NCBI GenBank assembly: GCA_021770005.1
Contig: JAETRV010000026.1
Coordinates: 1 to 34,948 of the forward strand
DNA length: 34,948 nt
Direction: 5' to 3'
DNA from: Anaerotruncus sp.
Lineage (GTDB): Bacteria; Bacillota; Clostridia; Oscillospirales; Ruminococcaceae
The translations under genes were made by a program, and so were the position numbers. The notes below the pieces were generated by a model. It had not been told where the DNA came from and searched no databases. It saw only the letters and a list, made by a program, of their open reading frames with translations. Within the stretch, counting starts at the first letter, position 1. Every line of letters starts with the position of its first letter. This document shows, in pieces, positions 13,438 to 34,948 of this stretch.

Positions 13438-13722
13438 TAAGCGCCTGTTTAGAATCTAAAGCTTCACTAAAGCTTTACTCAATTTTTCTCGAAAAATTGC
13501 GGTTTCCACTGCAAGCCGCAGCGCAGCGTTTCGAGCGCAACCCGCCAAAGGCGGGCTCTTAGCGCGAGATAAGGCAGAGCCTTTGGCCGCGTCCCGCAGG
13601 ACGCGGAATCTTTATCCTGTGAAGCGTATTTTTCGGGTGAATTGCCGCCCAAAGGGCGGCAAGAGGGGGCTTTTTACAAGAGAAAAAGCCCCCTGCAAAA
13701 AATTTCAAACAGGCTCTAAGCG
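13438..13722 (+). repeat. Hairpin-rich intergenic repeat, copy C (most complete copy)
   Basis: A ~285-bp non-coding element between cyclophilin and chrA. The ends are inverted: TAAGCGCCTGTTTAGAAT at left and ATTTCAAACAGGCTCTAAG at right. In order it contains AATTTTTCTCGAAAAATT (hairpin), the CCGCC..GGCGG / GCTCTTAGCGCG module in reverse, AAAGGC-AGA-GCCTTT, the CGCA-loop hairpin (13587-13606, stem CCGCGTCC), the conserved TTTATCCTGTGAAGCG and TTTTTCGGGTGAATTG, a GCCGCCC-AAA-GGGCGGC hairpin (13642-13662) and GGGGGCTTTTT-ACAAGAG-AAAAAGCCCCC (13665-13693). It points toward chrA, the same orientation relative to the downstream gene as copies D, E and the main copy at 30 kb. Confidence 0.88.
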
Positions 13723-15423: not shown

Positions 15424-15530
15424 CTAAGAGCCTGTTTAAAATCGAAAGCTTTACTCAATTTTTCTCGAAAAATTGCAGGGTCGAGGGGCAGAGCCCCCGC
15501 GGAAAGCTTTATCCTGAGAAGCGCTTTTGA
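15424..15530 (+). repeat. Hairpin-rich intergenic repeat, copy D (short form)
   Basis: It starts with TAAGAGCCTGTTTAAAATC, then CTTTACTC and an AATTTTTC-TCG-AAAAATT hairpin, then GGGTCGAGGGGCAGAGCCCC, then CCGCGG in place of the CGCA-loop hairpin, then CTTTATCCTGAGAAGCG. The 3' modules (TTGCCGC hairpin and ACAAGAG hairpin) are missing. The orientation is toward the MATE gene. Confidence 0.82.
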
Positions 15531-17714: not shown

Positions 17715-17915
17715 CTTGTGACTTTAACAACTTGTTTCGCATCTTTGCAGGGGGCTTTTTCTCTTGTAAAAAGCCCCCTCTTGCCGCCCGAAGGGCGGCA
17801 ATTCACCCGAAAAATACGCTTCACAGGATAAAGTGTTCCGCCGCGTGCGCGCGGCGGCGGGGGCTCTGCCCCTCGACCCTGCGATTTTTTGAAAAAAATC
17901 GAGTAAAACTTTTAT
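17715..17915 (-). repeat. Hairpin-rich intergenic repeat, copy E, between nrdD and the glycyl-radical ORF
   Basis: Read on the minus strand: GAGTAAAACTTT/TTTTACTCGATTTTTTTC module next to the nrdD stop, GGGTCGAGGGGC-AGA-GCCCCC, the CGCA-loop hairpin (17838-17857, stem CCGCCGCG), CTTTATCCTGTGAAGCG, TTTTTCGGGTGAATTG, GCCGCCC-TTC-GGGCGGC (17781-17801), GGGGGCTTTTT-ACAAGAG-AAAAAGCCCCC (17750-17778), then TGCAAAGATGCGAAACAAG. It fills the gap between the two nrd genes and points toward the glycyl-radical ORF. Confidence 0.88.
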
Positions 17916-26309: not shown

Positions 26310-26432
26310 AAATGTGCCCAAGAGGAATTCCGCGTCCTGCGGGACGCGGCGGGGGCTCTGCCCCTCGACCCCGCAGCCTTTGAAAAGGCTGGCGAAACTT
26401 TTTTCACCACGATTTTTCAAACAGGCTCTTAC
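26310..26432 (-). repeat. Hairpin-rich intergenic repeat, copy F
   Basis: Read on the minus strand: TAAGAGCCTGTTTGAAAAATC end, then AAAAGTTTCG, a CAGCC-TTTTCAAA-GGCTG hairpin, GGGGTCGAGGGGC-AGA-GCCCC, and the CGCA-loop hairpin (26330-26349, stem CCGCGTCC). The distal modules are missing. It lies between the convergent MATE and LacI genes, so here it is downstream of both. Confidence 0.82.
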
Positions 26433-29432: not shown

Positions 29433-30056
29433 TTATTTTATGGTAATATTTTCTCCGCTCAGGCCGACAAAAGCGCCTTCCTTTGCTTCGTTGGAATCCG
29501 GATGGGCGATCAGCCATTTGTTGCGGGCGCGCAGGAACCGGTCTTCCAGCGTCTCCGGCTGGATTGCCGGCATATCGGTATTGGTGCCGCGCGGCAGCAC
29601 GACCGCCACTCGGAACCCCTCCTTGCCCGGCATGGTCACCGGCGCATAGTGCAGGGTGGTTTCATAGAGCAGAACCGCGGTTCCCGCCGGAGCGGAGAAC
29701 GCCTCGACTTCGCTGGTGTCCAGCCTGCCGTCCTGCACCTTTTGGAGCGATGCGACCAGAAACACCATGTCATCGTCCGGGATATTCAGTTCGCTGTTGC
29801 GGTGGTATTCCAGGCAGTTCAGTTTCTGGTTGTGGCCGTTGCAGTAGCCGACCTGCACCGGCATCCCGCCGAACACCCTTTCCGCGACCTTCTGGGAGAC
29901 CGGCAGTGCCTCAGCCGCCGGGTCGCTGGGGACATAGATGGTGTGATCGGCCGGTTTTTCGCTCGTCTCGCGGACCAGCTTGAGCAGGGGGGCAAAGTCA
30001 TACCCCTCGACCACCTTGCCATAAACGGCAAACTCCTTGTCAAATACAGATTTCAT
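29433..30056 (-). CDS. DUF4867 family protein in a sugar catabolic operon
   Basis: A 207-aa soluble protein of DUF4867, recognised from MPVQVGYCNGHNQKLNCLEYH, LYETTLHYAP and VLPRGTNTD. The family has a cupin-like look; His85, Glu89 and His136 are candidate metal ligands, and the closest functional idea is a sugar epimerase, lactonase or ligand-sensing cupin, none proven. It sits 15 bases before the isomerase gene and after the xylulokinase gene, suggesting a step on the same sugar. AGGAGGG is nine bases before the ATG at 30056. A hairpin repeat fills the gap to the kinase gene. Confidence 0.85.
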   Translation of the reverse strand: MKSVFDKEFAVYGKVVEGYDFAPLLKLVRETSEKPADHTIYVPSDPAAEALPVSQKVAERVFGGMPVQVGYCNGHNQKLNCLEYHRNSELNIPDDDMVFLVASLQKVQDGRLDTSEVEAFSAPAGTAVLLYETTLHYAPVTMPGKEGFRVAVVLPRGTNTDMPAIQPETLEDRFLRARNKWLIAHPDSNEAKEGAFVGLSGENITIK

Positions 30057-30074
30057 CGGATGGTTCCCTCCTTC

Positions 30075-30340
30075 TAAGGATCTATTTCGCATCTTTGAGG
30101 GCGCTTTTTCTCTTGTAAAAAGCGCCCTCTTGCCGCTTCGCGGCAATTCACCCGAAAAATACGCTTCACAGGATAAAGTGTTCCGCGCTCTGCGGAGCGC
30201 GGCCAAAGGCTCTGCCTTTGGAATCCGCGATTTTTTGGAAAAAATCGAGTAAAACTTTTCGTTTTTCCAAAACCAAAAGTTTCGTCCACCTTTTCAAAGG
30301 TGGCGGGGTCGAGGGGCGGAGCCCCCGTTGCGCCCAGGCA
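30075..30340 (-). repeat. Hairpin-rich intergenic repeat, copy H (full copy plus an opposed partial copy)
   Basis: The main copy (30075-30265, minus orientation) has AAAGGC-AGA-GCCTTT, the CGCA-loop hairpin (30183-30202, stem CCGCGCTC), CTTTATCCTGTGAAGCG, TTTTTCGGGTGAATTG, GCCGC-GAA-GCGGC (30130-30146) and GGGCGCTTTTT-ACAAGAG-AAAAAGCGCCC (30099-30127), then CAAAGATGCGAAA toward DUF4867. A partial copy in plus orientation follows (30266-30340): AAAAGTTTCG, CCACCTTT-TC-AAAGGTGG and GGGGTCGAGGGGCGGAGCCCC, reaching the kinase stop codon. Confidence 0.87.
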
Positions 30341-31864
30341 TTAAAGCGTGGAAAGCGTGTGGAAACTCTCCCGCAGAGCGGGATAGAGCGACCGGTAGAG
30401 CTGGTAGAACGGCTCATACTGCGCGGAGGCTTCCGGGTCAGGCTGCTGGGCGGGGTTGGTGCGGATCATGGCGTGGCAGGCGTCCTGCACGCTGGGGTAG
30501 AGCCCCGCACCCACTCCGGCGAGGATCGCCGCGCCGAGCGCCGGACCCTCTTTGGAGACGACCGTTTTGACCGGGCAGCCGTAAACATCCGCGAGCATCT
30601 GCCGCCAGAGCGGGCTGCTTCCGCCGCCGCCACAGGCGAGCATCTCGGTCGAGACGACCCCCATCCCGCGCAGGACGTCGAGACACTGGCGCTGGGAATA
30701 GGTGACCCCCTCCATCACCGCGCGCAGCAGGTCATACTTGGTGTGGATCGCCGACAGCCCGAAGAACACCCCGCGGCTGTTCTCATCGAGCAGCGGGGAC
30801 CGCTCGCCCATCAGATAGGGCAGGAAGAGCAGCCGGTTCGCGCCGATCGGGATACGTTCGGCCTGTTTGTCCATCAGGTAGTAGGGGTCCACCCCCATGC
30901 CTGCCGCGGTCTGCATCTCTTCGGTGAAAAAGTTATCCCGCAGCCATTTGAGCGAAAGCCCCGCCGCGAGGGTGCAGCTCATCACCGTCCACGCACCCGG
31001 CACTGCGGCGCAGAAGGTGTGTACCCGACCCTCAGGATCGATGGTGACCTGATCCGAATGTGCGAACACGACGCCCGAAGTGCCGATCGTGGTGAACGCC
31101 TTGCCGGACTCCACGACGCCGGTGCCGACCGCCGCCGCCGCATTGTCGCCCGCGCCGCCCACGACCGGGGTGCCCGCTGCAAGGCCGGTGAGGGCAGCGG
31201 CCTCCGCCGTGACCTGCCCGGTGACCTCACAGGATTCATACATCTTCGCGAGTAGGGATTGATCGATCCCGAGTTTTTCGAGAATCTCGTCCGACCAGCA
31301 GCGGTTGGGGACGTCGAGCAGGTTCATGCCCGACGCATCCGAAACCTCGGTGGCAAAGACACCGGTCAGTTTATACCGGATGTAATCTTTCGGGAGCAGG
31401 ATATGGCGGCACTTTTCATACAGCTCCGGCTCGTTGCGGCGTACCCAGAGGATTTTTCCAGCGGTGAACCCGGTGAGCGCGGGGTTGGCGGTGATCTCGA
31501 TCAGCCGCTGTTTGCCGACCAGCTCGGTGATCTCCGCACATTCGCGGGAGGTGCGGCCGTCACACCAGATGATGCTTTTGCGCAGCGGCTCGCCCGCCTC
31601 GTCGAGCATGACCAGCCCATGCATCTGCCCCGAAAGGCCGACCCCCTTGACCGCTTCCGGCGCAACGCCGCTTTCCTCCATCACCCGGCGGATGGTGGCC
31701 GCTGCCGCATTCCACCAGTCAGCGGGGTCCTGCTCTGCCCAGCCATTCTGGGGCTGGTAGAGCGGGTATTCCACCGTGGCCGAACCGGCGACATTCCCGC
31801 CCTGATCGAATAGGACGGTCTTGGTACCCGAGGTACCGAGGTCAATACCAATCAAATAATCCAT
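30341..31864 (-). CDS. xylB: Xylulokinase-family sugar kinase (FGGY)
   Basis: A 507-aa FGGY carbohydrate kinase that phosphorylates a ketose with ATP, giving a ketose phosphate for central metabolism. YLIGIDLGTSGTKTVLFD is the N-terminal phosphate motif, SGQMHG (78-83) is the xylulokinase substrate signature, GGAGDN carries catalytic Asp240, and ACGGGGSSPLWRQMLADV is the adenosine site. Since the operon has a FucI-like isomerase and no xylose isomerase, the true substrate may be xylulose, ribulose or fuculose. AGGAGGG is eight bases before the ATG. It is the first intact gene after the LacI-controlled promoter. Confidence 0.93.
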   Translation of the reverse strand: MDYLIGIDLGTSGTKTVLFDQGGNVAGSATVEYPLYQPQNGWAEQDPADWWNAAAATIRRVMEESGVAPEAVKGVGLSGQMHGLVMLDEAGEPLRKSIIWCDGRTSRECAEITELVGKQRLIEITANPALTGFTAGKILWVRRNEPELYEKCRHILLPKDYIRYKLTGVFATEVSDASGMNLLDVPNRCWSDEILEKLGIDQSLLAKMYESCEVTGQVTAEAAALTGLAAGTPVVGGAGDNAAAAVGTGVVESGKAFTTIGTSGVVFAHSDQVTIDPEGRVHTFCAAVPGAWTVMSCTLAAGLSLKWLRDNFFTEEMQTAAGMGVDPYYLMDKQAERIPIGANRLLFLPYLMGERSPLLDENSRGVFFGLSAIHTKYDLLRAVMEGVTYSQRQCLDVLRGMGVVSTEMLACGGGGSSPLWRQMLADVYGCPVKTVVSKEGPALGAAILAGVGAGLYPSVQDACHAMIRTNPAQQPDPEASAQYEPFYQLYRSLYPALRESFHTLSTL

Positions 31865-34662: not shown

Positions 34663-34725
34663 AGCGTGTTCCCCCCTCAGCCATGCAACGTTTTCCATGG
34701 TCAAAGACGTGTTTTCCATCTCTTA

Positions 34726-34948
34726 GAGCCTATTTAAAATTTAAAGTTTTACTCGATTTTTTTCAAAAAATCGCGGGGTCGAGGGGCGGAGCCCCCGCCG
34801 CCGCGCGCACGCGGCGGAAAGCTTTATCCTGAGAAGCGTCGCTCCGGCCTAAGAGCCGACGCTTCGCGTCGGTTGGCCTCTGCACGCCGATCTCCGCGCT
34901 AAGAGCCGCCTGCGGCGGTTGCGCTCCGAAACGCTCGCTGCGGCTCGC
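34726..34948 (+). repeat. Hairpin-rich intergenic repeat, copy B (runs off the window)
   Basis: It begins TTAGAGCCTATTTAAAATTT, then GTTTTACTCGATTTTTTTC, GGGGTCGAGGGGC-GGA-GCCCC, the CGCA-loop hairpin (34798-34817, stem CCGCCGCG), CTTTATCCTGAGAAGCG, then CCTAAGAGCC-GACGC-TTC-GCGTC and the GCTAAGAGCCGCC module. The last 101 bases match the first 101 of the window at about 95 percent. Confidence 0.85.

Follow-up and report, generated by a model that had tools for sequence, protein, structure and literature searches.

The window analysed here, a whole contig of 34,948 nucleotides (C10) from the draft genome of an Anaerotruncus sp. (G000; 2.93 Mb, 155 contigs), carried copies of an extragenic, multicopy array of short hairpins. 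The unit consisted of H1-H2-H3, often then followed by H4-H5. H1 occurred for example as CGATTTTT-TTCA-AAAAATCG or CCACCTT-TTCA-AAGGTGG, H2 was of the GGGGC-AGA-GCCCC or the CCAAAGGC-AGA-GCCTTTGG type, H3 followed the pattern YCGC-NNNN-CGCA-N'N'N'N'-GCGR, and H5 had the form AGGGGGCTTTTT-RCAAGAG-AAAAAGCCCCCT; a core (TTTATCCTGWGAAGCG) lay between H3 and H4. The H5 loop letters GCAAGAG also recurred at the H4-H5 junction in many copies, e.g. L001. The following features were located in the window:

13440..13717, plus strand: copy 1, a 278-bp unit between inverted ends, with TAA flanks; H1 13479-13499, H2 split by an insert (3' part 13571-13586), H3 13587-13606 (CCGCGTCC), core 13611-13626, H4 13642-13662, H5 13664-13694; as a split copy, 13467-13544 and 13563-13612
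13509..13570, plus strand: second palindromic repeat (CTGCAAGCC...GCGAGAT), which interrupts H2 of copy 1 in its 5' arm
15427..15523 (also given as 15443-15508), plus strand: H3-less copy with end repeat, H1, H2 and core
17749..17914, minus strand: copy 2, full H1-H5; H1 17882-17902, H2 17860-17872, H3 17838-17857 (CCGCCGCG), core 17817-17832, H4 17781-17801, H5 17749-17779
26324..26429, minus strand: copy 3, with end repeat, H1 (CAGCC) 26374-26391, H2 26352-26364 and H3 26330-26349 (CCGCGTCC), without core, H4 and H5
30098..30260, minus strand: copy 4, full H1-H5; H1 30228-30248, H2 (CCAAAGGC type) 30203-30221, H3 30183-30202 (CCGCGCTC), core 30162-30177, H4 30130-30146, H5 (GGGCGC) 30098-30128
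30274..30357, plus strand: H1-H2 piece beside copy 4 in the opposite orientation; H1 (CCACC) 30286-30303, H2 30313-30325, H3 not intact
34725..34840, plus strand: copy 5; end repeat 34725-34740, H1 34753-34773, H2 34783-34795, H3 34798-34817 (CCGCCGCG), core 34823-34838; interrupted by a third repeat from 34841 to the contig end

All five H3 hairpins listed had a perfect 8-bp stem and a 4-nt spacer, as the initial annotation had reported from the sequence. Its description of a CGCA closing all five stems held once the copies were oriented; as given on the plus strand, the spacer reads CGCA at 13587 and 34798 and TGCG at 17838, 26330 and 30183, which are minus-strand copies. Pairwise comparison of the three stems CCGCGTCC, CCGCCGCG and CCGCGCTC gave 2, 3 and 4 differing positions, short of the five of eight that had been claimed. 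The neighbouring hairpins covaried as described, with GCCGCCC or GCCGC in H4, GGGGGC or GGGCGC in H5, and CAGCC or CCACC in H1. The number of pieces in the window exceeded five, with the H3-less copy, the H1-H2 piece and the split form of copy 1. In the H3-less copy, H3 was cleanly absent and H2 abutted the core directly.

Two other palindromic repeats were associated with the array. The second repeat (CTGC[AG]AGCCGCAGCG...GAGAT) was found directly 3' of the CGCA loop of H3 in both Anaerotruncus species, at 14 of 169 anchored loci, and second-repeat loci included 13509-13570 in the window, L033, L044, L053, L155, L159, L168 and others. In copy 1 it sits after the TTCCA of H2, and it seems to target a CA within a hairpin. 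The third repeat (GCTCCGGCC...) was present at both contig ends (1-101 and 34848-34948, 95% identical); as the contig ends lie inside it, the draft assembly breaks at these repeats.

In the genome as a whole, a DNA search returned at least 47 matches (40 of 272 candidates scored), and the exact core pattern was found at 56 places. The own-genome loci examined comprised 66 distinct core-anchored copies of this palindromic repeat. In the relative Anaerotruncus sp. G3(2012) (G006), an exact pattern scan gave 34 stretches; when 7 loci of G006 were compared with these, 5 agreed with a G3 locus at 8 of 8 probes and 2 with none of the 34.

Loops and module order are largely kept across genera while stems differ yet stay paired

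A model of H1-H3 (R1) was matched by 44 genomes in a family sample of 197, representing 30 of 125 genera, and, in a sample of the gut-bacterial order to which Anaerotruncus belongs, by 40 of 295 genomes from 29 of 149 genera and nine families (by the list of genome handles); R1 scores base pairs, so the genomes recovered with it come from a pair-favouring search. In the class sample, 12 of 291 genomes matched, six of them within the order; the remaining matches were strong in one incomplete genome outside the order (G727) and weak in five others. G727 (61% complete) had at least 15 R1 matches, many of them strong, pointing to transfer, contamination or misplacement. Among the loci listed across genera, the order of the hairpins was unchanged and the stems were different. 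Some genomes, e.g. G040 and G120, possessed H1-H3 with H4-H5 not recognisable. H5 retained the loop [GA]CAAGAG with stems such as GGGGACGCCCT, GGGGAGGCTCT and GAGGACTTTTT. When the three best-sampled genomes were set aside, 22 distinct places were anchored, of which 12 paired at 11 of 11 positions and the rest at 1 to 10, the anchor having only seven letters, so that some of the 22 places are chance hits (two of the 24 rows were duplicates).

No match to the 174-nt query from copy 4 was found in the plasmid and phage collections. Among contigs of the viral collection, the H2-H3 pattern was present in one 12.6-kb stretch (L371), which may be phage or host DNA, with three anchored places, two of which had perfect stems. 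No description of the H1-H5 repeat was found in the literature covered, which is weak evidence with most subscription papers outside that coverage, and a word search of a REP survey (PMC12306157) returned no Clostridia or Ruminococcus terms.

Covariation of H3 was measured on copies anchored by the loop and H2 context, with no pairing filter (of 151 anchored loci, 14 were excluded for an insert, 13 for their offset and 60 as duplicates; the 64 remaining sequences included 44 distinct ones). In this set 93.8% of 352 cells paired, compared with 64.4% when the 3' letters were shuffled, and the covariation score was 0.799 compared with 0.209; none of 500 shuffles reached the observed score or paired share. 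In register, double changes were present at all 8 pairs. When the structure was slid by 1-3 columns, only 30-49% of cells paired. The weakest of the five measures was the number of further pair types (21 vs 18.3), which was equalled or exceeded in 32 of 500 shuffles. The shuffle test ignores kinship, and sets of related sequences can outscore shuffles of this kind; kinship as the whole cause of the H3 signal is argued against by the slide control and by how many distinct stems there are. A first stem table, first alignment and its fold had demanded pairing of H2 and H3 and were not used as proof.

Across cellular genomes, 169 H3 loci were anchored, 14 of them with an insert after the loop; 126 of the 155 left had perfect stems. 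These insert-free loci came from 44 genomes and yielded 33 distinct perfect stems from 37 genomes, in which the outer CGC/GCG was nearly invariant and the four inner pairs took nearly all types. Overall, the covariation is real and order-wide, and the compensatory stem change by which structured RNAs are recognised was found.

Sets anchored on CGCA cannot show conservation of the loop, which was therefore counted with the loop free at up to two sites in tail-anchored copies from three genomes of the genus. CGCA was present in 71 of 82 parsed H3 hairpins and another loop in 11, with 40 of 122 copies unparsed; by reading, 8 of these 40 had perfect stems whose register was shifted by a single base, and the second repeat was present in about 22. 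The loop that was said never to change was thus invariant in the five window copies, not in the genus.

Folded DNA or folded RNA

The strong order-wide signal was found without a strand preference or a G.U excess, and part of it reflects the swapping of cassettes. At the insert-free anchored H3 loci, mispairs comprised 8 G.T and 7 A.C (4 and 3 in the tail-anchored set), and 27 copies of H5 gave 6 G.T and 10 A.C, with 49 of 76 rows of three Anaerotruncus genomes (fewer than 6 Watson-Crick pairs) omitted from the H5 counts. The excess of G.T over A.C expected of an RNA made from one strand was found neither in H3 nor in H5. Between co-directional genes both orientations occurred, 28 vs 19 in G000 and 15 vs 13 in G006 (total 43 vs 32; p = 0.25). 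Given the lack of a G.T excess and the mixed orientation, the data do not support selection on an RNA of one strand.

If the hairpins worked at the RNA level, stabilising 3' UTRs or acting as attenuators or terminators, compensation would keep an RNA fold, and this explanation, the best surviving of the alternatives, is considered rather unlikely. The gene context agrees with it, as simple coding-score gene calls placed no counted copy inside a called gene in G000, G006 or G007, and few copies lay in divergent gaps (0 of 55 in G000 and 3 of 43 in G006, i.e. 3 of 98, vs 22 of 99 element-free gaps); within the gap sample alone, 3 of 38 element-bearing gaps and 22 of 99 without an element were divergent (p = 0.08). 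Several spacers also read UNCG on the other strand (TGCG, TACG, TTCG). The mispairs and orientations given above count against it, and so does the comparison with Rfam, in which the window had no match at threshold; with relaxed filters, E-values in 30000-30400 ranged from 0.39 to 0.93, and the best for copy 4 was a sub-threshold 0.42. The gene-context pattern resembles that of known REP-like DNA and would stay compatible with a role in transcripts of either strand.

The initial annotation had put the compensation down either to selection acting on folded DNA or RNA or to palindromes being regenerated by a copying mechanism. The data do not favour RNA over DNA as the molecule whose folding is selected; they do support a pairing constraint and, inside the genome, support a copying mechanism well, as set out below.

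Intact hairpins are reassorted between copies within a genome

Stem change could be followed on three time scales: among the copies of one genome, at matching sites of two species, and over genera. Within a genome, all four combinations of module types (four-gamete sets) were found in 19 of 20 module pairs (41 copies from G000, 34 from G006). H2 and H3 were tightly linked in both genomes (V = 0.86 and 0.96; 0 of 500 shuffles as high). Weaker linkage was detected in G000 for H2-H4 and H3-core (28 and 24 shuffles as high) and in G006 for H1-core, core-H4, H3-core, H1-H3, H1-H4 and H1-H2 (4 to 39 shuffles as high). Differences between copies within a genome look largely like a shuffling of intact hairpins.

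Copies at the same site in the two species were compared for the three secure pairs among five with both flanks matching; L005/L312 and L001/L168 were left out, their immediate flanks being unlike, and may be separate insertions. In L024/L165, H2 and H3 had both switched type, H1, core and H5 were unchanged, and the H4 spacer also differed. The flanks of this pair were 99% identical upstream and 95% downstream, whereas homologous flanks of at least 500 bases between the two species are mostly 82-93% identical, which suggests that the stretch was transferred recently between species. The two other secure pairs showed single uncompensated H3 changes (L101/L161 at pair 1; L099/L175 on one arm), and in L101/L161 H4 differed on both arms. 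For only 5 of the 68 G000 copies anchored on the core did both flanks match those of a G006 copy in order; this was a sample of loci rather than a full comparison, and it suggests a high turnover of copies.

Among the 33 perfect H3 stems, 30 had a neighbour one pair away. In an earlier set of 34 stems that included the viral contig and twelve loci with provisional genome labels, the share with such a neighbour was 0.94, compared with 0.68 after column shuffling. Single-pair neighbours across genera are as expected if pairs change singly on both sides. Within the genus, changes were fewer in the arms (14 of 1148 sites; 1.2%) than in the loop (12 of 328; 3.7%; Fisher p = 0.007); the difference between the arms and the core linker (2.1% per site), which was itself a search anchor, was not significant (p = 0.11). 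As the arms change less than the loop and 37 genomes hold so many distinct perfect stems, a pairing constraint is supported.

Inversions of the spacer on unchanged arms were found in H1, H3, H4 and H5, and were few. They included an inverted TGAA in 2 of 84 parsed H1 copies, CTCTTGT in one copy of H5, and the H4 spacers TTC/GAA and TTTG/CAAA on identical arms. In two genomes, L218 and L225 shared the H3 stem TCGCACTC with TGCG in the former and CGCA in the latter. The weak linkage of modules, the block swap of H2 and H3, and the inverted spacers on unchanged arms give direct support for copying.

Mutation might even suffice by itself, with template switching from arm to arm perfecting imperfect palindromes and so producing covariation without any selection on folding. 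The spacer inversions and the lower rate of change in the arms both agree with this; two papers (PMC8794818, PMC8604942) describe, in their accessible parts, the homogenisation of arms, compensatory changes of several bases and inverted spacers, and template switching yields spacer inversion according to the second. Mutation of this kind cannot, however, explain why the loops CGCA, AGA, TTCA and GCAAGAG and the hairpin order persist across genera, and it leaves the copy number unexplained; as a complete account it is unlikely.

It is highly improbable that the five window stems simply represent three ancestral types copied about in a few recent events. A few stems do dominate the genus, chiefly CCGCCGCG, hairpins are reassorted, and one block swap was observed, so that within this genome a few copying events explain the stems in part. 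They do not across genera, where covariation was also found, and the 33 distinct stems, 30 of them one pair from another, contradict recent copying as a full account, which stands for the window alone.

Mobility, meaning and likeness to known systems

Inverted ends of AGAGCCTRTTTAAAAT (GAGCCT..) enclosed some of the copies in the window's species. There were 22 candidate pairs, one of them in G006; 8 of the 22 candidate units were 204-206 bp long, the longest measured 513 bp, and 16 of 22 had equal TTA or TAA on both sides (flanks compared by eye). The end pattern was nearly confined to G000, with 25 exact matches there, 2 in G006 and none in nine further genomes of the genus. In G007 and in other genera, the copies that were read showed no inverted ends, and in five G007 copies without them neither a target duplication nor a fixed upstream tetranucleotide, such as the target of an IS200/IS605-derived (PATE-like) element would provide, was recognised by eye. 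At the matching site of Anaerotruncus sp. G3, copy 1 was absent.

In the window's species, some copies may owe their movement to an IS with GAGCCT.. ends. In the draft genome (155 contigs), no autonomous partner IS with these ends was found; the nearest longer end pair, 2.8 kb apart on C155, enclosed proteins read by eye as SerC- and SerA-like, and no transposase was recognised by eye in this interval. No transposase or other mobiliser could be tied to the element.

The least probable of the alternatives, a very doubtful one, is that of a REP/RAYT or IS200/IS605-dependent element moved by the Y1 transposase of its own genome: it would suit extragenic hairpin DNA with a loop- and pairing-dependent logic like that of group-3 REPs (PMC8266576, accessible text), and G000 has one Y1_Tnp match, but Y1_Tnp (E ≤ 0.001) was present in 20 of 44 R1-positive (three of the 20 by weak matches) and 62 of 153 R1-negative genomes, G040 has at least 23 R1 matches and no Y1_Tnp candidate, and no conserved GTAG or CGTC tag beside the hairpin stood out by eye in the copies read. 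The lack of association with R1 presence, together with G040, speaks against a Y1 transposase as the general mobiliser.

The reading favoured here, held with moderate confidence, is that the repeat is a REPIN- or BOX-like, non-autonomous extragenic hairpin array, of which H3 is one module, and that it spreads and is kept as folded DNA. The element would be both spread and retained as folded hairpin DNA, its recognition depending on the loop sequences and on a stem that has to be paired and is indifferent to sequence, by analogy with the group-3 TnpAREP and IS200/IS605 transposases. New stems would arise through single-pair changes on both arms, probably by template switching from arm to arm and recombination between copies, the template-switch step resting on spacer inversions, which are few; they would then be exchanged between copies as cassettes.

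A more specific version is put forward only tentatively, in which a putative protein would read each hairpin of an order-wide mobile array by its loop, as folded single-stranded DNA, and the stems would drift while pairing is maintained by recognition and template switching. Covariation would then mark a DNA parasite, not an RNA.

Covariation is usually read as a strong sign that an RNA is functional, and here it sits in an extragenic repeat. The array would be a natural test bed for telling apart RNA selection, DNA hairpin recognition and template-switch maintenance. This abundant repeat family of gut bacteria has no label in Rfam and coincides with breaks between contigs of the draft assembly; it may bring with it a new mobiliser that acts on single strands.

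Among known systems, REPINs and REPs are the closest kind, as they too are short extragenic hairpin DNA in many copies. Compensatory changes are common in REPIN hairpins, according to the part of PMC3116915 available, and group-3 TnpAREP need both the loop and a paired stem, stem swaps having at most a moderate effect in one system, and mismatches being harmful (PMC8266576, in the portion accessible). The present element differs in having three to five different hairpins in a fixed order with their loops kept, and two defining tests of REP/RAYT failed here, as no tag was seen by eye and no tie to Y1 genes was found.

Modularity is shared with the BOX elements, as described in the available text of PMC3049150. 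BOX and RUP are placed there in S. pneumoniae, S. mitis and rarely other streptococci, whereas this array spans an order, and most of its copies that were read from outside the window's species have no inverted ends. MITEs with TNA target duplications are similar to the units of the window's species that have inverted ends and TTA/TAA flanks. The ends, which may be IS5-like, are nearly confined to G000, and the hairpin array is far wider. Template-switch hairpins are alike in their multibase compensatory change and spacer inversion, but the cases presented in the accessible parts of PMC8794818 and PMC8604942 concern RNA genes and inverted repeats in coding sequence rather than a repeat family that keeps its loops. 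What is new is an order-wide array of several hairpins whose loops are largely kept and whose stems are free yet paired. By analogy, we think that it works like REPINs and group-3 REPs while standing outside the REP/RAYT family.
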